Source: Acidimicrobiales bacterium
Lineage (GTDB): Bacteria; Actinomycetota; Acidimicrobiia; Acidimicrobiales; SZUA-35
Reading direction: 5' to 3'
Assembly: GCA_020629695.1 (NCBI GenBank)
Contig: JAHDCV010000028.1
Coordinates: 14,200 to 48,293 of the forward strand
DNA length: 34,094 nt
Positions 21,880 to 34,094 of this stretch are shown in pieces (the first letter of the stretch is position 1; each line of letters starts with the position of its first letter). The notes beneath the pieces are model-generated. The model saw only the letters and a program-made list of their open reading frames with translations, was not told the origin of the DNA and did no database searches. Position numbers and translations under genes: made by a program.

Positions 21880-22224
21880 TCAGAAAATGCTGAACTCGAA
21901 GGTCGCGAAGACGATGAAGTACACGATCACCGCGAGCAGGAGTGCCGACCCGAAGATCCACCAGAAGAACTTGCCGTTCAGGATCTTCGTGTCGAAGTAG
22001 AGATGCATGAAGGCGCCCGCCACCAAGATGAACTTGGCGATCATCATGACCATCATGGGCAGGACCAGCAGCGGTCCGCCGTCGTCGGTCAGCGGGATCT
22101 CGGCCCAGGCGACCTCGGCCGCCGTGATGATCGCCAGCGCGACGAACACGACCCAGTACTGACGCTCGGTGGGGTGATGATCCTCGACGTCGTGGTGATC
22201 GGCGGCAATGGTTTCTGCAGACAT
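21880..22224 (-). CDS. Cytochrome c oxidase subunit IV (prokaryotic COX4 type)
   Basis: 114-aa small subunit with three helices, matching the COX4_pro/CyoD-like family: RQYWVVFVALAIITAAEVAW, LLVLPMMVMMIAKFILVAGAFMHLYFD and ILNGKFFWWIFGSALLLAVI. The AKFILV..FMHL stretch is the family hallmark. It begins with a His/Asp-rich segment (ADHHDVEDHHPTE) resembling tails on other subunits here. ATG 22224 has GAGG 6 nt upstream. It lies 8 bp after ctaE. It stabilises subunits I and III in related oxidases. Confidence 0.88.
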   Translation of the reverse strand: MSAETIAADHHDVEDHHPTERQYWVVFVALAIITAAEVAWAEIPLTDDGGPLLVLPMMVMMIAKFILVAGAFMHLYFDTKILNGKFFWWIFGSALLLAVIVYFIVFATFEFSIF

Positions 22225-22232
22225 CGGGGACC

Positions 22233-22892
22233 TCAGACGACCAGGTAGACGATGGTGAAGATCAACACCCAGACGATGTCGACGAAGTGCCAGTAGAGAC
22301 CGACGAGCTCGACGGTCTCATGGCGATCCTTGTTCAGCTTGCCCTGGAACGACAGGACGAGCAGCGAGGTCAGCATCAGGATGCCGCCCGTGACGTGCAC
22401 GCCGTGGAAGCCGGTCAAGGTGAAGAACGCCGAACCGAACAGGTTCGTCGTGAACCCGAGGCCTTCCCGGTAGAAGACCGTGAACTCGTACACCTGGCCC
22501 GCCAGGAAGAGTGAGCCGAGCGCTGCGGTGGCACCGATCCAGATGCGGCTGTTCTTCACGTCGCCGTGATGGATGGCCTGATGGGCGAGCACCATCGTGA
22601 GCGACGACATCAGCAGGATGAACGACGACGCCGAGGTGAACGGGATGTCGAACAGCTCGGTTCCGGGCCCGGTCACGAGCGGGTTGCCCTCGGCTCGCTC
22701 CTGATTGAACCGGGCGACCGACAACAGGTAGGACGAGATGAGGGCACCGAAGAGCAGGACCTCGGAGCCGAGGAACAACCACATCGCCAACTTCATGTTG
22801 GAGATGCCGAGGCTGGTGTGGTGCCCCTCGTGATGCTCGTCGTGATGGGCGTCGACGTGTCCGTCGACGGCGGGGGTGGCGACATCAGCCAT
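22233..22892 (-). CDS. ctaE: Cytochrome c oxidase subunit III
   Basis: 219-aa membrane subunit with about five helices. Family signatures: KLAMWLFLGSEVLLFGALISSYLL, the Glu-bearing TM region GQVYEFTVF, TLTGFHGVHVTGG and VGLYWHFVDIVWVLIFTIVYLVV. The N-terminus is His-rich (DGHVDAHHDEHHEGHH, residues 11-26). ATG 22892 was chosen: GAGG lies 6 nt upstream and it overlaps the ctaD stop by 8 bp; a longer in-frame reading from 22931 has no support. Forms the core oxidase with CtaC and CtaD. Confidence 0.93.
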   Translation of the reverse strand: MADVATPAVDGHVDAHHDEHHEGHHTSLGISNMKLAMWLFLGSEVLLFGALISSYLLSVARFNQERAEGNPLVTGPGTELFDIPFTSASSFILLMSSLTMVLAHQAIHHGDVKNSRIWIGATAALGSLFLAGQVYEFTVFYREGLGFTTNLFGSAFFTLTGFHGVHVTGGILMLTSLLVLSFQGKLNKDRHETVELVGLYWHFVDIVWVLIFTIVYLVV

Positions 22893-24840
22893 GAGCGACC
22901 TCGACCTCTCCGTGGTGGTGATCGTCCGCATCGAGATCGTCGGCGGGTTCCAGCGACCAGCCGTAGAGCGCCGTCATCATGATGAAGGCACCCGGGATGC
23001 AGAGGTAGAGCGAGAAGATCAGGCCGTAGCCGATGATCATGATGCCGATGGACAGCACCAGCGGCCAGTAGGACGGCGCCGGGAGGTGCACACCCTCACC
23101 GTTGCCGGGGTGGGCGAGTTCTTCGGCGGTGGCCACGCGGACCAACTTGCCGTTCTCGTCTTCGGCGTACTTCTTGTGCCAGAAGTCGTCCAGCTCGGTG
23201 ATGACCGGGTCGACGTCGAAGTTGTGCTCCGGCGCAGGGGACTGGATCATCCACTCGATGCCTCGCGCGTCCCAGGGGTCCGGTCCGACATCGGGGCGCC
23301 CAGCACGCTTCCAGGCCCGGTAGGACACGAAGGCGTTCACGAGGATGAGCAGCGAACCGACACCGAGGATGAACGACCCGATGGTCGCGACCATGTTCCA
23401 CAAGCCGAAGCCCTGGACCTCGGAGTAGGTCTGCATCCGGCGAGGCATGCCCTGGAGACCCAGGATGTGCATCGGACCGAAGGTCAGGTTGAACCCGGCG
23501 ACCATCGTCCAGAAGTGGGCCTTGCCCCACTTCTCGGAGAGCTTGTAGCCGAACGCCTTCGGCCACCAGAAGTAGAAGCCGGCCATGAAGCCGAACAGGG
23601 CCCCTCCGAACAGCACGTAGTGGAAGTGGGCGACGATGAAGTAGGTGTCGGTCTGCTGGGTGTCGGAGGCGGCGACCGAGTGCATCACACCCGAGAGCCC
23701 ACCGACGGTGAACTGCGTCACGAGGCCGATCGAGAACAGCATCGCGGTGTTGAGGAGCAACTTGCCGCCCCACATCGTGGCGAGCCAGTTGAGGATCTTC
23801 ACACCGGTCGGCACGGCGATGAACATGGTGACGGCGGAGAACGCGGCGACCGAGAGCGGCCCGAGCCCCGACACGAACATGTGGTGGGCCCACACGCCCC
23901 ATCCCATGAAACCGATGCCCACGCCCGAGGCGACCATGAAGGGGTAGCCGAAGATGGGCTTGCGGGAGAAGACCGGGATGGTCTCGGACACGATGCCGAA
24001 TGCCGGCAGGATCATCAGGTACACCTCGGGGTGACCGAAGATCCAGAAGAGGTGCTGCCAGAGAAGCGGGTCGGCGCCCTGCTCGACGTTGAAGAAGTTG
24101 GCGTCGAAGCCACGGTCGAGCAGCAGCAGGACCTGGGCCACGGTGAGGACCGGGATGGCGAAGAGCAGGAGGAACTGGGTGACGAGGGTCATCCAGGTGA
24201 AGACCGGCATCTTCATCCAACTCATGCCCGGCGCGCGCATGTTGAGCACGGTGGTGATCAGGTTGACCGCACCCGTCATCGACCCGATACCGGCGATGAG
24301 CAGACCGATGTTCCAGAAGTCGATTCCGGTGGAGGGCGAGTAGGCGACACCGTTGTTCGGTGCGTAGTTGAACCAGCCGCCGTTGGCACCACCACCGATG
24401 AACCACGACGTGTTCAGGAGGATGCCGCCGGCGAGGAACACCCAGAAGCTGAACGCGTTGATCCGGGGGAAGGCGACGTCACGTGCGCCGATCTGCAATG
24501 GGAGCAGATAGTTGGCGAACGCCGCACCGAGCGGCATGACCGCCAGGAACACCATCACCGTGCCGTGCATCGTGAAGACGCGGTTGTAGGCATCACCCGA
24601 GAGCAGGGTCTGGTCAGGGGCGGCGAGCTGGGTCCGGATCCCGAGGGCGGCGATGCCGCCGATGACGAAGAAGAACAGCGCGGCGGCGCCGTACATGATG
24701 CCGATCTTCTTGTGGTCGACCGTGGTCAACCAGTCCTTCAGACCGGTGGCGCCACGGGGACGGCTGAGCCCGCCGAGTGGGTTCGAGACCGTCGGACGGT
24801 CACCCGAGGGGAGTGCGAGGGGTTCTTCGATGATGGCCAT
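22885..24840 (-). CDS. ctaD: Cytochrome c oxidase subunit I (aa3 type, A1 class)
   Basis: 651-aa catalytic subunit that reduces O2 to water and pumps protons. All ligands are present: His92 (TMHGTVM, heme a), His270 with Tyr274 (GHPEVY, CuB and cross-linked Tyr), His319-His320 (WAHHM, CuB), His405 (heme a3) and His407 (heme a) in AHFHYV. The Glu in HPEV marks the A1 class with D-channel. Length exceeds a basic 12-helix subunit; the C-terminal region (about 580-630) has two more helices (YWPLVLSIGIMIIGYGLIFS, AFIMMTALYGW) and ends in DDHHHGEVEVAHG. Start ATG 24840 has GAGGAAG upstream. Confidence 0.97.
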   Translation of the reverse strand: MAIIEEPLALPSGDRPTVSNPLGGLSRPRGATGLKDWLTTVDHKKIGIMYGAAALFFFVIGGIAALGIRTQLAAPDQTLLSGDAYNRVFTMHGTVMVFLAVMPLGAAFANYLLPLQIGARDVAFPRINAFSFWVFLAGGILLNTSWFIGGGANGGWFNYAPNNGVAYSPSTGIDFWNIGLLIAGIGSMTGAVNLITTVLNMRAPGMSWMKMPVFTWMTLVTQFLLLFAIPVLTVAQVLLLLDRGFDANFFNVEQGADPLLWQHLFWIFGHPEVYLMILPAFGIVSETIPVFSRKPIFGYPFMVASGVGIGFMGWGVWAHHMFVSGLGPLSVAAFSAVTMFIAVPTGVKILNWLATMWGGKLLLNTAMLFSIGLVTQFTVGGLSGVMHSVAASDTQQTDTYFIVAHFHYVLFGGALFGFMAGFYFWWPKAFGYKLSEKWGKAHFWTMVAGFNLTFGPMHILGLQGMPRRMQTYSEVQGFGLWNMVATIGSFILGVGSLLILVNAFVSYRAWKRAGRPDVGPDPWDARGIEWMIQSPAPEHNFDVDPVITELDDFWHKKYAEDENGKLVRVATAEELAHPGNGEGVHLPAPSYWPLVLSIGIMIIGYGLIFSLYLCIPGAFIMMTALYGWSLEPADDLDADDHHHGEVEVAHG

Positions 24841-24857: not shown

Positions 24858-26171
24858 TCAGTCCAGCGTCGCCAGGTAGGCGACGAGCTGATCCAGCTGT
24901 TCATCACTGAGGGCGAACGACGGCATACCCCGTCGGTCGTCGGGAGCCATGTCCTTCTGGCTCGGTGCATTCGCGATCCAACGACGGAGCTGGGCGGTGT
25001 TCCAGCGATAGTTGGCGTCGAGGTCGGTGTAGGTCTCGATGCCGAGCTCGTTGAGATCGTCGTCGTTCGCATCCAGCTCGGCGTACTGCGAGTAGATCGC
25101 ACCACCGAATGCCGACCGGCTGGCGAAGTGAGTGAGGTTCGGTGCGGCCTTGGCCACCTGCGGCGACACGAAGATCGACGTCGGGATCTCGTGGTCGGTG
25201 TCGTCCAGGACGGGGTCACCGAGCGAGTCCCGGAGGATCGTCGGGTAGGAGAAGTCCGGATCGTCGACCACATGGCAGCTCGCGCACTGCTGCCCGAAGA
25301 GCTCCTTGCCGGCGATGGCCAGCTCGTCGCTCGGGTCGGGCTGGGCGGCCGGGAGCATCTGGTTGGCGAGCCAGGCATCGAAGTCGTTCTGCGGGAGAGC
25401 GATGACCGACATGCGCATGCGGGCGTGCGAGAGGCCGCAGTACTCGGTGCACCACCCCGTGTACTCGCCGGCTTCATCGGCCTCGAGCGACCAGGTGTGG
25501 ATCCGACCGGGCACGGCGTCGCGCTTGCCGTTCAGGCGGGGGATCCAGTACGAGTGGATCACGTCGCGGGACGTGATGAGCAGGTCGACCTGCTGGCCGA
25601 CCGGGATCACCATCTCCTGCGCAGTGGAGACGTCGTCGGGGTCGAGCGAGAACTCGAGGGGAAGGCCCTCGTCGAGCTCGTCGACGACTCCGTCGCCATT
25701 GCCGTCGATGAAGAACCCGTCACCGTCGACGTCGTAGCGGTACTCCCACCACCACTGTTGACCGATGACCATCACGTCGAGCTCGTCGGCGTCGTTCTTC
25801 TCTTCCAGAGCGAAGATCGTCGGCACGGTCACGACGGCGACCACGGCGAGGATCAGGCCGGGAAGTGCGGTCCAGCCCCACTCGAGCGTCGGGTTGCCGT
25901 GCACCTGCTCGGGGAATTCGCCGTCGTTGAACTCTTCCTCGCTGACGCGGTTCTTCCAGATGATGTAGCCGGCACCGGCGAAGGTGGCGACGAACACCGC
26001 GGTGGCCATCCAGAGGATGAACAGGGTGTTGCCGTGGATGCGGTCGGCCTGCGGACCCTGCGGCTCGAAGATGTTGAGCGGCTTGTCCTCGGCACAGGCG
26101 GCTGCGGTGACGGCGACGAGGGCCAGGAGCAGGCCCGAGCGCCATCTGTTCCGGCGATTGGAAGTGTTCAT
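24858..26171 (-). CDS. ctaC: Cytochrome c oxidase subunit II with fused cytochrome c domain
   Basis: 437-aa lipoprotein subunit (signal ends at Cys26, VTAAAC). Two helices (about 49-72, 101-122) precede the CuA cupredoxin domain: WWWEYRY, His206 (HSYWIP), and Cys241, Glu243, Cys245, His249, Met252 (WCTEYCGLSHARM), all CuA ligands. A cytochrome c domain follows, with haem site CASCH (296-300), PNLTH and distal Met in GMPSF. Unusual is an acidic insertion after WWWEYRY, with DVDGDG (147-152) and an EF-hand-like loop (156-167). The cytochrome c domain is also longer than usual between CASCH and GMPSF. ATG 26171 has GGAG upstream. Confidence 0.95.
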   Translation of the reverse strand: MNTSNRRNRWRSGLLLALVAVTAAACAEDKPLNIFEPQGPQADRIHGNTLFILWMATAVFVATFAGAGYIIWKNRVSEEEFNDGEFPEQVHGNPTLEWGWTALPGLILAVVAVVTVPTIFALEEKNDADELDVMVIGQQWWWEYRYDVDGDGFFIDGNGDGVVDELDEGLPLEFSLDPDDVSTAQEMVIPVGQQVDLLITSRDVIHSYWIPRLNGKRDAVPGRIHTWSLEADEAGEYTGWCTEYCGLSHARMRMSVIALPQNDFDAWLANQMLPAAQPDPSDELAIAGKELFGQQCASCHVVDDPDFSYPTILRDSLGDPVLDDTDHEIPTSIFVSPQVAKAAPNLTHFASRSAFGGAIYSQYAELDANDDDLNELGIETYTDLDANYRWNTAQLRRWIANAPSQKDMAPDDRRGMPSFALSDEQLDQLVAYLATLD

Positions 26172-26229
26172 GCGATCTCCAGCGTTGTCGCGCTCGTGCA
26201 ACGACGCCAAGTCGTATCGAGGGGTCTGG

Positions 26230-27018
26230 TCACTCACTGTGCTCACCATCCTCGCCATGGTCCGAACCATGCTCGGAATAGTGTTCGATCTCGCGCTCAC
26301 CCACGGCCGCACCGATGATGCCGCCGCCGAGGACGGCCAGTCCGCCGGCCACGAGCAGACCGGAGATGACCCGCCGGCTCAGTTCGAGTTTGGCCATGGC
26401 GATGGCACCGCCGAAGATCACGATCGCGATCACCGAACCGACCACGACCGACCCGGTCTTCGAGACGGCCAGGAGCACGCGGGACAGGCCGATCACGATG
26501 ACACCGAACATCACCGTGCCGAGCATGGGAACCTCGAGCGGGCCCAACACCCGGTCGCGCACGACGGCGTTGACGTCGGGATCACCGGTGGCCCGATCGG
26601 ACCAGGCCAGCACCGTCCACTCGATGAGGGTGACGACGAGGACGATGATCCCCAGGATGAAGAACGCCTGCGAAACGGCCAGACCCACGATGAGGCAACC
26701 GATGCCGAACGCGGAGATCGGACCCCAGTAGCTGAGCGTCCGTGGTGGCTGCGCCGGCGGCACGGTGTCGAGGCCGGCGGCCAGCGCCAGGTCGTCGGCA
26801 TCGGCGTCACGAACGACGACGCTCAGCACGCCCATCAGCATCGAGGCGGCCGAGACCGCCAGCAGGATGCCGTAGCCGGTGTGATCGCCGACGCCGCCCT
26901 TGTACCCGATGCTGATCGCACCGATCGGGCTGCCACCGGTCACGAGGGCATAGGCGATCGCCGCAGCGAGCGCCACGGCACTCACGCCGAAGAAGAATTT
27001 TGCACCCCAGGTGAACAT
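26230..27018 (-). CDS. Unrecognised membrane protein in oxidase operon, His-rich tail
   Basis: 262 aa with about seven hydrophobic segments; no family was recognised. The first helix is preceded by MFTWGAKFFFG; a loop (DADADDLALAAGLDTVPPAQPPRTLSYWGP) separates the first and second helix groups. The C-terminus EIEHYSEHGSDHGEDGEHSE is rich in His and acidic residues and could bind metal ions. Position between the subunit III-like gene (9 bp upstream) and ctaC (58 bp downstream), on the same strand, points to a structural or assembly role in the respiratory complex. Start ATG 27018 has a weak AGG upstream. Confidence 0.75.
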   Translation of the reverse strand: MFTWGAKFFFGVSAVALAAAIAYALVTGGSPIGAISIGYKGGVGDHTGYGILLAVSAASMLMGVLSVVVRDADADDLALAAGLDTVPPAQPPRTLSYWGPISAFGIGCLIVGLAVSQAFFILGIIVLVVTLIEWTVLAWSDRATGDPDVNAVVRDRVLGPLEVPMLGTVMFGVIVIGLSRVLLAVSKTGSVVVGSVIAIVIFGGAIAMAKLELSRRVISGLLVAGGLAVLGGGIIGAAVGEREIEHYSEHGSDHGEDGEHSE

Positions 27019-27027
27019 CGCTTCGAC

Positions 27028-27636
27028 CTACTTCGTGATGTAGACGGCGTACCACAGCACGAGGTACAGGCCGACCATGACGTACCAGAAGACCGTGGCG
27101 GCCCAGATGCCGTCGGTGTCGCGGGAGGAGTACTCCCCGACGAACAACCGCATGAGGGTCACGAGCACGTATCCCATGGCCCCGACGAGGATCGCCAGGT
27201 GGGAACCGATCACGGCGAGCAGCAGCAGACCAGCACGGGTCGCTGCGATCTCGACCTCCATCAGGAACAGCAGGTAGCCCGTCTGGGCCAACACGCCGAG
27301 CCCGAAGAGCAAGGTGAGCGAGAGAGCGATCTTGGCGTTGGAACGGTCATCGTTGTTGATCGCGGCGATGGCCCAGGCCATCGACACGAGCGACCACACC
27401 AGCGTCAGCGCCATGAAGTTCGGTTGCGTGAGCGGGATCACGGTGCCGGCCGGCAGCCACGTCTCGCCGGTGCTGATCACCGCAGCCCGCTCCGCGAGGT
27501 ACATCGCCATGAGCGCGCCGTAGCCGGCGACGAAGCCGATCGAGGCGAGCGAGGTGGCGAGCACCAGCAGGCGAGGCCGCGACGGCTCGGCGACGGCGAC
27601 AGCGGCCGGCAGGGTCGGTCGGTAGGAGGTGGTCAT
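27028..27636 (-). CDS. Heme-copper oxidase subunit III-like protein (second copy, divergent)
   Basis: 202 aa, about five helices. The C-terminal half resembles subunit III: VIGSHLAILVGAMGYVLVTLMR, then DGIWAATVFWYVMVGLYLVLWYAVYITK matches the family's YWHFVDxVW ending, but His and Asp are changed (FWYVMVGLY). An internal MEVEIA keeps an acidic helix residue. It is distinct from ctaE, which is complete elsewhere in the operon. GAGGAGG sits 6 nt before ATG 27636, and the start is 1 nt after the upstream stop, so it is co-translated with the degenerate subunit I-like gene and likely partners it. Confidence 0.72.
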   Translation of the reverse strand: MTTSYRPTLPAAVAVAEPSRPRLLVLATSLASIGFVAGYGALMAMYLAERAAVISTGETWLPAGTVIPLTQPNFMALTLVWSLVSMAWAIAAINNDDRSNAKIALSLTLLFGLGVLAQTGYLLFLMEVEIAATRAGLLLLAVIGSHLAILVGAMGYVLVTLMRLFVGEYSSRDTDGIWAATVFWYVMVGLYLVLWYAVYITK

Positions 27637-27637
27637 G

Positions 27638-29266
27638 TCAGGCCTCCTCGGCGAGCGGAAGAGCGGACGTCACGACAGGTGCCTCGGCGAAGTTCCCGAC
27701 CGGCGGCGGCGAATCCGTCGCCCACTCGAGGGTCAGACCCGTCCACGGCTCGGCGGCCGAGCCCCGGCCACCGGCGGTCGTGGCGAGGACGTTGAGCAGC
27801 AGCAGCAGCGCACCGGCGGCGAGCAGACCCGCACCGGCCGTGCCCAGCACGGCCAGCGCCGGCACGCCGTCGTCGGTGAGGCCGGCCAACACACCGATCT
27901 CGGGATCGATGAATGCGCCGATGAGTTCGGCGAGGCCCCACAACACACCGCCACCGGCGGCGGCGAGCGTCGAGAGCAGACCGAGGCGATCGTCGAGCGC
28001 TCGGCCGAAGAGCTTGTGGCCCCAGTGGTGCACGCCGGCGATGACGCCGAGCACGGCGCCGGCCATGGCCAGCGCACGCACACCCTCGTGCAGCGTCGAA
28101 CCACCGAGCTGCAGCCAATCGGCCACGGTCCAGCTCTGGTCGAACACGTCGGCGAGGAAGTTCACGATCGGCTCGATGACCGACAGGGCACCGAGGGCGA
28201 GGCCCTTGGTGAACAGCGCACCGGCGAGAACGGCGGCGACGAGCGGTGTCCGCACGGTGAGCTTGCCGCTCCGCAGCGACAGTCCGCCGAGGCCGAGCAC
28301 GACCAGCGGCGGCAGGAGCACGGCCGCGGTGTCGAGCACGAGGAGCGCATTGTCGCCGGCGATCGAGCGGCCGAAGCTCGAGAAGGCGAGGACGGCGCCA
28401 CCGAAGGAGAACACGGCCATGGCGCCCAGCGCACCGAGCACGACCTTGCGCTGCTTGACGGGAGCGCCGGTGTGGGTCTCGATGGCGTCGAGCGCGATGC
28501 CGAGGACGGGAAGACCGAGCAGGCCGATCGACGGCGTCCGGGTCAACGAGTCCATGACACCGACGAGGCCCTGGCGCTCTCCGAACGGGAGGAAGCCGTA
28601 GCGGACCTGGAGGTAGGCCAGCACGAGTTCGGCCATCGCGATCGGCAGTGCCACGAGACCGAGGAACGAGAACATGAGCATCGACCAGCTCGTGAAGGGC
28701 ACCCGGTCGAGCGTCATGCCACTCGCCCGGAGGCCGAGCACGGTCGCCCCGAGGCAGACCATCGCCCAGCACAGCGCGGCGAGCATCGTGCCGAAGGCGA
28801 GCACCCAGAGGACGACGAAGTCGGTCTGACCGCCGCCGGGACCACCGTTCAGCACGACCGACAGCAGGGCGATGCTCGTCGCCACCATCCAGGTCCAGAA
28901 CGCCGCGGCGGCGCCCCGGGGGAAGGCGAGTGTCGTGGCGCCGACCTGCAGTGGGACGATGGCGATGCCGAGCCCGACGAGGATCGGAACCACACCGCCG
29001 AACATGATCATCAACCGGGAGAGGTCCCAGAGCTGGGCGAACATGTCGCCGTCATCGACGATCGAGTAACCGGCGAGGTCGATGCGTTCGATGTTCGCGA
29101 CGAGCGCGAGCACGAGGCCGACGACGAGGAACAGTGAGCCCCCGCCGATGAACATGCGGCCGACCGTCTTGTGATCGCCGGAGCCCAGCGCAGACGGGTC
29201 GGGGCCGACCACGACGGGCGCAGCGGCCGGCGCGTCGGTCTCGGGGGCGGTGTCGGTCAGTGCCAT
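27638..29266 (-). CDS. Subunit I-like heme-copper oxidase paralogue lacking metal ligands
   Basis: 542 aa, about 12 or more helices. Homology to CtaD is visible by eye in PLQVGATTLAFPR (105-117; CtaD has PLQIGARDVAFPR), in GLPVLGIALDAIET (CtaD ILPAFGIVSETIP), and in GAVLGVIAG..HWGHKLFG (CtaD GALFGFMAG..WWPKAFG). In ungapped alignment the six His ligands of CtaD map to Ser83, Thr244, Leu293, Ala294, Gly395 and Arg397; HPEVY reads TPSIG. It therefore should not bind heme a, heme a3 or CuB. The frame is open and the composition normal, so it is not an evident pseudogene. The start is uncertain: ATG 29266 is used, GTG 29329 is possible. Confidence 0.75.
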   Translation of the reverse strand: MALTDTAPETDAPAAAPVVVGPDPSALGSGDHKTVGRMFIGGGSLFLVVGLVLALVANIERIDLAGYSIVDDGDMFAQLWDLSRLMIMFGGVVPILVGLGIAIVPLQVGATTLAFPRGAAAAFWTWMVATSIALLSVVLNGGPGGGQTDFVVLWVLAFGTMLAALCWAMVCLGATVLGLRASGMTLDRVPFTSWSMLMFSFLGLVALPIAMAELVLAYLQVRYGFLPFGERQGLVGVMDSLTRTPSIGLLGLPVLGIALDAIETHTGAPVKQRKVVLGALGAMAVFSFGGAVLAFSSFGRSIAGDNALLVLDTAAVLLPPLVVLGLGGLSLRSGKLTVRTPLVAAVLAGALFTKGLALGALSVIEPIVNFLADVFDQSWTVADWLQLGGSTLHEGVRALAMAGAVLGVIAGVHHWGHKLFGRALDDRLGLLSTLAAAGGGVLWGLAELIGAFIDPEIGVLAGLTDDGVPALAVLGTAGAGLLAAGALLLLLNVLATTAGGRGSAAEPWTGLTLEWATDSPPPVGNFAEAPVVTSALPLAEEA

Positions 29267-29460: not shown

Positions 29461-30366
29461 TCAGCCCACGCCCCAGCCCACCAGTTCGTCGACCGCCATG
29501 GCCGAGAACAGGACGGTGAGATGGGTGATCGAGAAGGCGAAATAGCGGATGGCCCGCTTCGAGCGGGCCTCCGGATCGGTCTCCTTGGCGAGCGACACCG
29601 CGCCACCGGTGAACAGCGCACCGACGGCCACGGCGGCGATGAGGTAGATCCAGCCGCGGTCGGCCACCTGCCAGAACACGAGTGAGCTGATCCAGACGAT
29701 CACGGAGTAGCCGAGGATCTGCCGGGCGACCTTCTCCGGCGTGGCGACGGCGGGCAGCATCGGGACGTCCGCTGCGGCGTAGTCGTCGGCGTACCGGACG
29801 GCCAGCGCCCAGAAATGCGGTGGCGTCCAGAAGAAGACGATCAGGAACAGCACGATGGCCTCGATGCCGATCGAATTGGTCACCGCCGTCCAACCGATGA
29901 CGGGTGGGGCGGCGCCGGCGGCACCGCCGATCACGATGTTCTGGGTCGAGGTCCGCTTCAGCCAGATCGTGTAGACGCCAACGTAGAAGGCGGTGGCGGC
30001 CACCGCGAGTGAGGCCGACAAGAGGTTGACGGTCCACCACAGCAGGAGGAACGCGGCGAGCTCGATCCCGAGTGCGAAGACGAGGGCTTCGGTCGGCGTG
30101 ATCTCGCCGGTGACGAGCGGCCGGCCCTTCGTGCGCTCCATCAGGGCGTCGATGTCGCGATCGACGATCATGTTCAGGGCGTTGGCACCGCCGGCGGCGA
30201 GCGTGCCGCCGACCACGGTGGCCACCACCAGCCCGAGTGACGGCAGCCCTTCGGCCGCCACGACCATCACCGGCACGGTCGTCACGAGGAGGAGCTCGAT
30301 GATGCGGAGCTTCATCAACGCCACGAAGGCGGCAACCCGGGATCGGGGAGTCGTGGCGATCAGCAC
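29461..30366 (-). CDS. ctaB: Protoheme IX farnesyltransferase (heme O synthase)
   Basis: 301-aa UbiA-superfamily membrane enzyme, adds a farnesyl group to heme B to make heme O. About nine helices. The two Asp motifs are NALNMIVDRDIDALMERTKGRPL and YADDYAAADVPMLPAV, with FFWTPPHFWALA between them. Length is normal for the family. The start is GTG 30366, set by TACCCT exactly 7 nt upstream. CtaA, encoded divergently 111 bp away, takes heme O to heme A; both serve CtaD. The C-terminus ends DELVGWGVG. Confidence 0.95.
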   Translation of the reverse strand: MLIATTPRSRVAAFVALMKLRIIELLLVTTVPVMVVAAEGLPSLGLVVATVVGGTLAAGGANALNMIVDRDIDALMERTKGRPLVTGEITPTEALVFALGIELAAFLLLWWTVNLLSASLAVAATAFYVGVYTIWLKRTSTQNIVIGGAAGAAPPVIGWTAVTNSIGIEAIVLFLIVFFWTPPHFWALAVRYADDYAAADVPMLPAVATPEKVARQILGYSVIVWISSLVFWQVADRGWIYLIAAVAVGALFTGGAVSLAKETDPEARSKRAIRYFAFSITHLTVLFSAMAVDELVGWGVG

Positions 30367-30477: not shown

Positions 30478-31416
30478 ATGGCAGCACCGAACCCTGGCGG
30501 GCATCACGACCTCGGGGACCGGGAGGGTTCCACGGGCCGGCCGGCGATGTGGATCGCCGCCGTCGCCGTCGCGGTGACGCAGGCGTCGATCGTGATGACG
30601 GGAGCAGCCGTACGTCTCACCGATTCCGGCCTCGGATGCGACGACTGGCCGACCTGCACCGAGGACAGCCTCGCGCCGGCCTGGTCGTTCCACGGCTGGG
30701 TGGAGTTCGGCAACCGCCTCTTCGCCGGCGTCGTCCTGGCGGCCGCGGTCATCGCCTTCGTGCTCGCTCGTCGGCCGCACCCCCGACGCTCCGACCGGCT
30801 CCGCTGGTCGGGTGCGGTGGTCGGCGGCACGTTGCTCCAGGCCGTGGTCGGCGGCGTCACGGTGATCAACGATCTCCTGCCGGCGCTCGTGGCCATCCAC
30901 TTCCTTCTCTCCATGGCGTTGCTCTGGGCCTCAGCCGAGCTCCTGCTCGCCAGCAGCTCACGACATCGCCGACGCCGCTCCCCGTTCACCGATCGTCACT
31001 CGACCGCCATCTGTGCGGTCACCGCCGGCGTGGTCGTGGCCGGCACGCTCGTGACCGGCACGGGTCCGAACTCCGGCGACGCCGTGGCCGACCGCCTGGA
31101 CTTCGACCTCGAATCGATCACCCGTGTGCACACGAGTCTCGTCTGGGTGCTGGTCGCGGTCATCGTCGCGACGGCGCTTCGCCGACGGGCCGACCTCGAT
31201 CGTCGCCCCGGCCTGCAGCGGCTGATGATCGCGACCGTGCTCCAGGGCGCGGTCGGCTACCTCCAGTACGCGCTGGGACTTCCCGCCGGCATCGTGGCCA
31301 TCCACATCGTCGGAGCGATGGCCGTGTGGTGGTCTGCGGTGTGGTTCCATCTGGCCGAGGCGTGCCCGGTCGACGGCGACCTGCGGGCGGACACGACCTT
31401 GGAGATGGCGGCATGA
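30478..31416 (+). CDS. ctaA: Heme A synthase
   Basis: 312-aa COX15/CtaA membrane enzyme that oxidises the C8 methyl of heme O. Eight helices are expected. The first-loop Cys pair is [13 protein letters not shown] (Cys54 and Cys60), followed by EFGNRLFAG (the actinobacterial form of the ExxHR-like site), and heme-binding His residues occur in [25 protein letters not shown] and [13 protein letters not shown]. Start ATG 30478 follows TAGTCT by 6 nt. The stop overlaps the clpS start (ATGA). Confidence 0.92.
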
Positions 31417-33803: not shown

Positions 33804-33879
33804 GCCCCCATCGTCCAGCGGCCTAGGACGCTGCCCTTTCAAGGCGGTAACACGGGTTCGAATCCCGTTGGGGGTGCCA
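33804..33879 (+). tRNA. tRNA-Glu (TTC)
   Basis: Acceptor GCCCCCA pairs with TGGGGGT (G-U at the first pair). Anticodon stem CTGCC/GGCGG holds loop CTTTCAA with anticodon TTC at 33838-33840. The T-arm is GGGTTCGAATCCC type. The 3' CCA is encoded (33877-33879). Confidence 0.95.
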
Positions 33880-33881
33880 TA

Positions 33882-33905
33882 CGATCGAGACTTCGGTTTC
33901 GATCG
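33882..33905 (+). other. UUCG-tetraloop hairpin between tRNA-Glu and tRNA-Asp
   Basis: CGATCGAGAC-TTCG-GTTTCGATCG forms a 10-bp stem with one G-U pair and a C(UUCG)G loop, starting 2 nt after tRNA-Glu. Likely a processing or stability element of the tRNA precursor; no T-tract follows. Confidence 0.6.
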
Positions 33906-33911
33906 GAATCA

Positions 33912-33986
33912 GGTCCTGTAGTGCAGTCTGGAGTGCACGCCGCCCTGTCAAGGCGGAGGTCGCGAGTTCAAATCTCGTCAGGACCG
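33912..33986 (+). tRNA. tRNA-Asp (GTC)
   Basis: Acceptor GGTCCTG pairs with CAGGACC. Anticodon stem CCGCC/GGCGG encloses CTGTCAA with anticodon GTC at 33947-33949. T-loop TTCAAAT. The discriminator is G; CCA is not encoded, unlike in tRNA-Glu next door. Confidence 0.93.
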
Positions 33987-34020
33987 CGATGCTCGGAGCC
34001 GCCAAGCTCCCAGCCGATCT

Positions 34021-34093
34021 GGTCGGGTAGCTCAGTTGGCAGAGCGACCGCCTGAAAAGCGGTAGGTCACCGGATCGACGCCGGTCCCGACCA
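34021..34093 (+). tRNA. tRNA-Phe (GAA)
   Basis: Acceptor GGTCGGG pairs with CCCGACC. Anticodon stem ACCGC/GCGGT encloses CTGAAAA with anticodon GAA at 34054-34056. The T-loop reads ATCGACG, with A where T54 is usual. The window ends one base after the discriminator, so an encoded CCA cannot be judged. Confidence 0.92.
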
Positions 34094-34094
34094 C

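Follow-up and report, generated by a model that had tools for sequence, protein, structure and literature searches.

An operon for a caa3-type oxidase in the window (the whole stretch of DNA analysed, 34,094 nucleotides) encodes, in addition to a canonical subunit I, a second intact protein of the subunit I fold, D2, which has lost all CuB ligands and, as we align it, the heme ligands as well. We favour the reading that D2 is a non-catalytic, structural pseudo-subunit I of the oxidase from the same operon, serving as a dead half or as a docking platform, and put its probability at roughly 55%. This reading builds on an intact frame, the subunit I fold, the loss of ligands, the grouping in one clade, purifying selection, the place in the operon and a conserved cytoplasmic face. 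D2 would associate with the oxidase and play a structural role, after a history in which CuB and then heme a3 and heme a would have been given up, repeatedly. Few membrane enzymes have been studied as much as the heme-copper oxidases, and our search of open-licence papers turned up no account of a subunit I that is conserved and free of cofactors. If D2 is indeed part of the enzyme, a cofactor-bearing oxidase fold has been reused as structure, a case paralleled by CydB of an oxidase that is unrelated.

D2 is an intact gene with a predicted subunit I fold

Read along the minus strand, the operon runs ctaB-D2-E2-u262-ctaC-ctaD-ctaE-ctaF, and these features lie in and beside it:

30478..31416, plus strand: CtaA-like heme A synthase, divergent from the operon (weak NCBIfam match)
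29461..30366, minus strand: CtaB heme O synthase, upstream neighbour of D2
27638..29266, minus strand: D2, catalytically dead subunit I (COX1-like) paralogue, 542 aa (PF00115, alignment, fold)
27028..27636, minus strand: E2, degenerate subunit III (COX3-like), 202 aa (PF00510 at 23.5 bits, cut-off 23.8)
26230..27018, minus strand: u262, polytopic membrane protein without a family match, 262 aa, with an acidic, His-rich C-terminus
24858..26312, minus strand: CtaC, subunit II with a fused C-terminal cytochrome c, caa3 type (PF00116, PF00034, TIGR02866); the true start is probably further in than the start of this frame
22885..24840, minus strand: CtaD, canonical catalytic subunit I (PF00115 at 522.6 bits; TIGR02891 above cut-off)
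22233..22931, minus strand: CtaE, canonical subunit III (PF00510 at 93.3 bits)
21880..22224, minus strand: small subunit IV, COX4_pro, 114 aa (PF03626 at 43.1 bits)

The preliminary description had reported D2 as an open frame of 542 codons with CtaD-like segments, and both points hold. The frame starts with ATG and has no internal stop, and PLQVGATTLAFPR, GLPVLGIALDAIET and GAVLGVIAG are all found in the protein; an upstream GTG as alternative start would give 563 aa. D2 matches PF00115 with 93 bits (E 2.5e-26), above the curated cut-off of 34.8 bits, and is one of 2 PF00115 matches in the source genome (CtaD 524 bits, D2 91 bits). An annotation based on PF00115 alone would score the gene as a second terminal oxidase. 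The CtaD equivalog model TIGR02891 (NCBIfam, cut-off 670.75 bits) separates the two, with 140 bits for D2 versus 686.5 bits for the operon CtaD.

An AlphaFold model of D2 built from 34 sequences has a pLDDT of 87.7 and a pTM of 0.90. Its best PDB match in Foldseek is a mycobacterial aa3 subunit I (TM 0.82), and VIA-align superposes it on Mycobacterium smegmatis CtaD (6adq_F) with Z 40.2 and an rmsd of 2.6 Å over 486 residues, bearing out the proposed likeness to subunit I. A sequence profile of D2 retrieves the same proteins (E 1e-65). Because these results agree, D2 is modelled with confidence as a complete 12-helix subunit I fold, a feature that it shares with the family A CtaD/Cox1 proteins (PF00115) together with the N-terminal DHK, PLQxGA..AFPR, R..GM and C-terminal LEWATxSPPP motifs. 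It differs from them in that its clade is without CuB ligands and mostly without heme ligands, has lost the D- and K-channel residues and, for the most part, the HPEVY glutamate and an arginine pair, and in that D2 has no subunit II of its own. A chance origin of the frame is excluded, since orthologues keep it open.

Ligand positions in D2

We aligned D2 with CtaD of the same operon and with relatives (50 relatives and 33 CtaDs in all; matches shorter than 480 aa were left out). The columns of CtaD His92 and His270 hold Ser83 and Thr244 in D2. The His319/His320 columns hold Leu-Ala in two larger alignments and Ala-Val in one made with MAFFT. The His405/His407 columns hold Gly395 and Arg397 when no gap is allowed, and Val396 and Ala398 when the alignment follows the His-bearing relatives in having one residue deleted; 11 of 28 of these relatives have 17 rather than 18 residues between the histidine and an invariant tryptophan. 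Of the ungapped by-eye series Ser, Thr, Leu, Ala, Gly and Arg given in the preliminary description, the first two residues thus stand as they were, and Leu-Ala and Gly/Arg depend on the alignment.

The claim that all six histidines are replaced holds in the larger alignments, in which no ligand position carries a histidine, and meets one complication. The MAFFT alignment and the HMMER profile open a 4-residue gap that brings His393 of D2, in the motif TLHEG, opposite His407. This column is histidine in 24 of 30 family orthologues; the residue sits where helix 10 begins, in a motif of the TLHEG type, and has no apparent ligand role. We judge the placement to be wrong, because it needs an in-helix insertion that is absent from the relatives that keep the histidine, all with 17 to 18 residues to the invariant tryptophan. 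Even with His393 at the His407 position, D2 would lack 5 of the 6 ligands, the whole CuB set among them. Of the six histidines of a catalytic heme-copper oxygen reductase, D2 thus has at most one, and that one is gap-dependent; the operon CtaD has all six. The replacement of HPEVY by TPSIG was confirmed.

Cofactor ligands appear to have been lost stepwise

We examined 143 dead sequences, the one in the window included, counted from locus L033 on (L033-L072 largely repeat the genomes of L003-L032), leaving out matches spanning fewer than 380 residues, identical sequences and the truncated CtaD of L055. The CuB triad is present in none of the 143, nor in any of 13 further sequences; His270, His319 and His320 occur in 2, 1 and 3 sequences and never together. 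None of the six histidines is left in 95 sequences, one in 21, two in 19 and three in 8. The heme a pair, His92 and His407, is kept in 24 of the 143 and the heme a3 ligand His405 in 10, and 8 of the 24 pairs are joined by His405, giving all three heme ligands. On a tree with 91 dead rows and 28 of CtaD, a single change is needed for the CuB triad, 6 for the heme a pair and 7 for the heme a3 histidine.

Heme ligands are still present in the lineages that branch closest to CtaD, with states such as HRAGHH and HYSEQH. Because these early-branching sequences still have them, the pattern suggests a stepwise loss, with CuB going first and the hemes later and repeatedly. The counts themselves are blind to gain versus loss, and repeated regain of a histidine pair is far less likely than its loss. 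A single loss of CuB is the simplest reading; the CuB positions hold differing residues in different early clades. Genomes with three, two, one and none of the six ligands form a natural series for the role of each cofactor in folding and assembly.

The residues of the proton-pumping family A enzymes are gone as well: the D-channel aspartate, the HPEVY glutamate and the K-channel lysine are found in 2, 7 and 0 of the 143 dead sequences, compared to 67, 65 and 63 of 67 CtaDs. Two arginines near the heme propionates are kept in 8 and 14 of the 143. An arginine adjoining position 92 is found in 90 of the 119 sequences without the His92/His407 pair versus 1 of the 24 with it. We dropped the idea that this residue compensates for the lost ligands, because independent pairs, of which at most 3 are informative, give no significant association (p >= 0.25).

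D2 was found within one order and forms a single clade

Searching the family genomes with D2 gave matches in 38 of 39, three of them cut short; the remaining genome, G028, had no match. The order was then searched by profile (198 genomes), and 80 undecided genomes again with a profile that included early-branching members. The gene is present in 132 of the 198 sampled genomes, as read from fetched loci; this count includes seven genomes positive by score only (G003, G096, G120, G163, G189, G190 and G193, 231-678 bits) and partial or broken frames (G195, G197, G203 and G062). The titled relatives are metagenome-assembled genomes labelled Acidimicrobiales, Acidimicrobiia, Actinomycetes, Actinomycetota or actinobacterium, and one 'bacterium'; a planctomycete locus, L071, is canonical and was excluded. 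In other orders of the class we examined 12 loci: all carry ctaC-D-E-F, CtaD being canonical, and none has a D2 frame (0/12; in one of them, L112, the contig ends just upstream). Outside the class, all 23 distinct fetched matches (L089-L092 and 20 loci, L292 repeating L090) are canonical; this count covers the fetched part of a larger set of matches in the phylum, which includes three more in the same class.

In this tree, a branch with support 100 separates the 91 dead rows from the 28 rows of CtaD. With the early-branching dead rows included, the dead clade falls outside the CtaD clade of the class. An origin of D2 as a duplicate of the operon's own CtaD was tried and rejected, the corresponding grouping having a log-likelihood lower by 30.9 (AU p 0.002). 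The dead paralogue may be older, it may have been acquired, or the tree may be misled by long branches. At two loci a gene is split into two overlapping frames, CtaD of G078 (L253, 1141-3320) and D2 of G062 (L254, 2229-3709); these are either sequencing frameshifts or broken genes.

D2 travels with a degenerate subunit III and u262

Among 39 loci on named contigs, ctaB is present in 37, E2 in 36, u262 in 34, ctaC in 32 and ctaD in 31; the missing genes fall at contig ends, and the order is otherwise constant. In one of the 37 titled loci that have ctaB (L060, 7845-8906), this gene is inverted relative to D2. In 142 loci with the dead gene, E2 accompanies it in 138 and u262 in 135.

E2 is 21% identical to CtaE in the alignment and is without most subunit III signatures. 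In 20 E2 rows, the glutamate of GSEVL, the second histidine of FHGVHV and the aspartate of YWHFVD are all absent, the histidine of YWHFVD is kept in 2 and the first histidine of FHGVHV in 14; the tryptophan is kept in all 20. The model of u262 is poor (pLDDT 68), and its comparison with the PDB gave no match with E < 0.001. A profile of u262 gives weak matches, at about positions 70-140, to the CtaD frames of four genomes, and the operon CtaD has a C-terminal subunit-IV-like extension just below the cut-off of PF12270. Because part of u262 matches CtaD frames, and this extension is near the threshold for subunit IV, D2, E2 and u262 may, judging from sequence, be a parallel I-III-IV set without a subunit II. 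The near-threshold extension, of the actinobacterial subunit IV type, exists besides the separate COX4_pro gene.

Candidate u262 orthologues in the rest of the class were rejected: the matches cover the C-terminal half only, mostly in proteins of 250-290 aa. In other orders of the class, L103, L104, L106 and L109 have a protein of this size approximately 1 kb after the cta operon. Three of 4 tested u262-like proteins match the copper-binding domain PF00127 above its cut-off; a separate region resembles the C-terminal half of u262.

D2 is under purifying selection with a conserved cytoplasmic side

By the method of Nei and Gojobori (own script), dN/dS is 0.09-0.29 for pairs of dead genes (n = 11) versus 0.04-0.12 for CtaD pairs (n = 10), and dN of D2 is 2 to 5.6 times that of CtaD. 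D2 is under purifying selection. None of the 38 family matches has an internal stop, so that the relatives do not show random decay, and the earlier proposal of a retained, non-catalytic protein of the subunit I fold in an oxidase operon is upheld by the fold, the non-decaying orthologues and the loss of ligands.

The mean pairwise identity of the dead rows is 0.425 on the cytoplasmic side (168 positions) versus 0.263 on the periplasmic side (128 positions; p 2e-8), and CtaD has little bias between the same sides (0.585 versus 0.538, p 0.11); both p-values treat alignment columns as independent, and the sides assume the usual subunit I topology with a cytoplasmic N-terminus. In the membrane core, identity is 0.33 for dead rows and 0.56 for CtaD. 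From this bias, the electron-entry (periplasmic) side seems to have been released from constraint in the dead proteins, while something on the cytoplasmic side seems to be held.

D2 co-occurs with a split b6-type complex III

The complex III of the source genome consists of a split cytochrome b6/subunit IV pair, a Rieske protein and a 508-aa cytochrome c. These genes lie at L272 (4752-9664), closely followed by a gene for NADH dehydrogenase chain 3. We called a cytochrome b b6-type when it matched PF00033 with E < 1e-40 and sorted the genomes into classes by hand. D2 is present in 122 of the 124 order genomes that have a b6-type cytochrome b, and in the other two the contigs end beside u262. 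It is found in 5 of 68 genomes with weak or QcrB-like matches only, the group into which most of the sampled genomes of the order without D2 fall, and in 5 of 6 with no match. Of the order genomes without D2, 7 were sampled for CtaD, and all 7 carry an oxidase from other CtaD clades; a b6-type genome of another order, G245, has no D2 beside its oxidase. G721, a genome of the same order that is not one of the 198, has a cytochrome b of the b6 type and no u262 match, and may be an exception to the co-occurrence. The association is suggestive; it follows the clades of the organisms and of the oxidase and is confounded with descent. ActD of the alternative complex III was found in none of 30 chosen genomes.

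Possible roles of D2

In the reading that we prefer, D2, the pseudo-subunit III E2 and u262 would form a membrane module without redox chemistry that is a permanent structural part of the caa3-type oxidase from the same operon. The module could be an inactive second half that packs onto CtaD/CtaE, in the way that heme-free CydB sits beside CydA, or it could be a platform that docks the oxidase to the split b6-type complex III. More tentatively, and with the odds somewhat against it, the caa3 oxidase of Acidimicrobiales may be asymmetric, having a complete heme-free pseudo-protomer (pseudo-I, pseudo-III and u262) beside the catalytic one, with living relatives preserving the stages at which first CuB was lost while both hemes stayed, then heme a3 and then heme a. 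Such an enzyme may occur only where supercomplexes with a split complex III of the b6 type are formed. Against a structural pseudo-subunit, the adjacency of ctaB fits an assembly factor equally well, D2, with its higher dN, evolves more loosely than a tightly packed core should, the b6 co-occurrence is confounded with descent, and His393 is conserved in the family without an apparent reason.

An assembly factor, in which D2, E2 and u262 would act as a template or holding chaperone for nascent CtaD or for heme from CtaB/CtaA and be absent from the mature enzyme, is the sort of alternative that deserves attention even though we consider it unlikely. Its gene directly after ctaB, the heme a ligands in 24 of 143 sequences and a conserved cytoplasmic face, which would suit assembly contacts, all fit. 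However, 95 of the 143 members have none of the six ligands, a complete 12-helix fold accompanied by a subunit III of its own would make a large chaperone, and the related cta operons of other orders are without D2 (12 of 12, the contig of L112 ending upstream). We are more doubtful still about a changed redox or ligand function, with a low-spin heme relay in early-branching lineages and, elsewhere, a pocket holding quinone or lipid. The retained His92/His407 pair (8 of the 24 with His405) and the arginine beside position 92 in sequences without that pair, which suggests a refilled pocket, argue for it, as does the precedent of CydB, whose heme positions hold ubiquinone-8 in the structural account of PMC6853902. 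Yet the periplasmic face is the less conserved one, the arginine pair near the heme propionates is mostly gone, no subunit II accompanies the module, and the arginine association loses significance on independent pairs.

Among the roles listed in the preliminary description, the structural or docking one is thus favoured, and that of a proton or ion channel derived from subunit I comes out as very improbable. Proton paths are normal in subunit I, and Arg84 in TM2 is conserved, but the channel residues and the HPEVY glutamate are gone from nearly all dead sequences and the membrane core is little conserved compared to CtaD, and we rejected the channel for the loss of its residues. We also rejected, with next to no probability left to it, a decaying relic that hitch-hikes in the operon. 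D2 evolves faster than CtaD, heme ligands seem to have been lost repeatedly and the D2 of L254 occupies two frames; against this stand dN/dS values well below 1, family matches without stops and retention across families of the order in a fixed gene order.

Two subunit I paralogues in one cluster are known from FoxA/FoxA' of the archaeal Sulfolobales. For cytochrome bd oxidase, the account in PMC6853902 describes CydB as heme-free, of the same fold as CydA, thought to be a gene duplicate, and the structural half of the enzyme. CydB belongs to another superfamily and fold than D2, and shows by analogy that a structural use of a heme-free homologue exists in another oxidase; the likeness is that of a heme-free homologue as structural half, with the pairing of D2 and CtaD being our inference. 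A COX3 doublet characterises the type a-III COX operon in the classification of proteobacterial clusters (PMC4013037); the extra subunit III resembles the D2 operon, whereas a dead subunit I is not described in the part of that paper on these operons. PMC8239418 mentions Acidimicrobiaceae in connection with a CtaA substitution.

Other features of the window

The frame at 13655-15460 matches the acyl-ACP thioesterase domains PF01643 and PF20791 significantly. At 33804-34094, the plus strand carries three tRNA genes, for Glu, Asp and Phe, and the minus-strand open frames that run across them are probably spurious.
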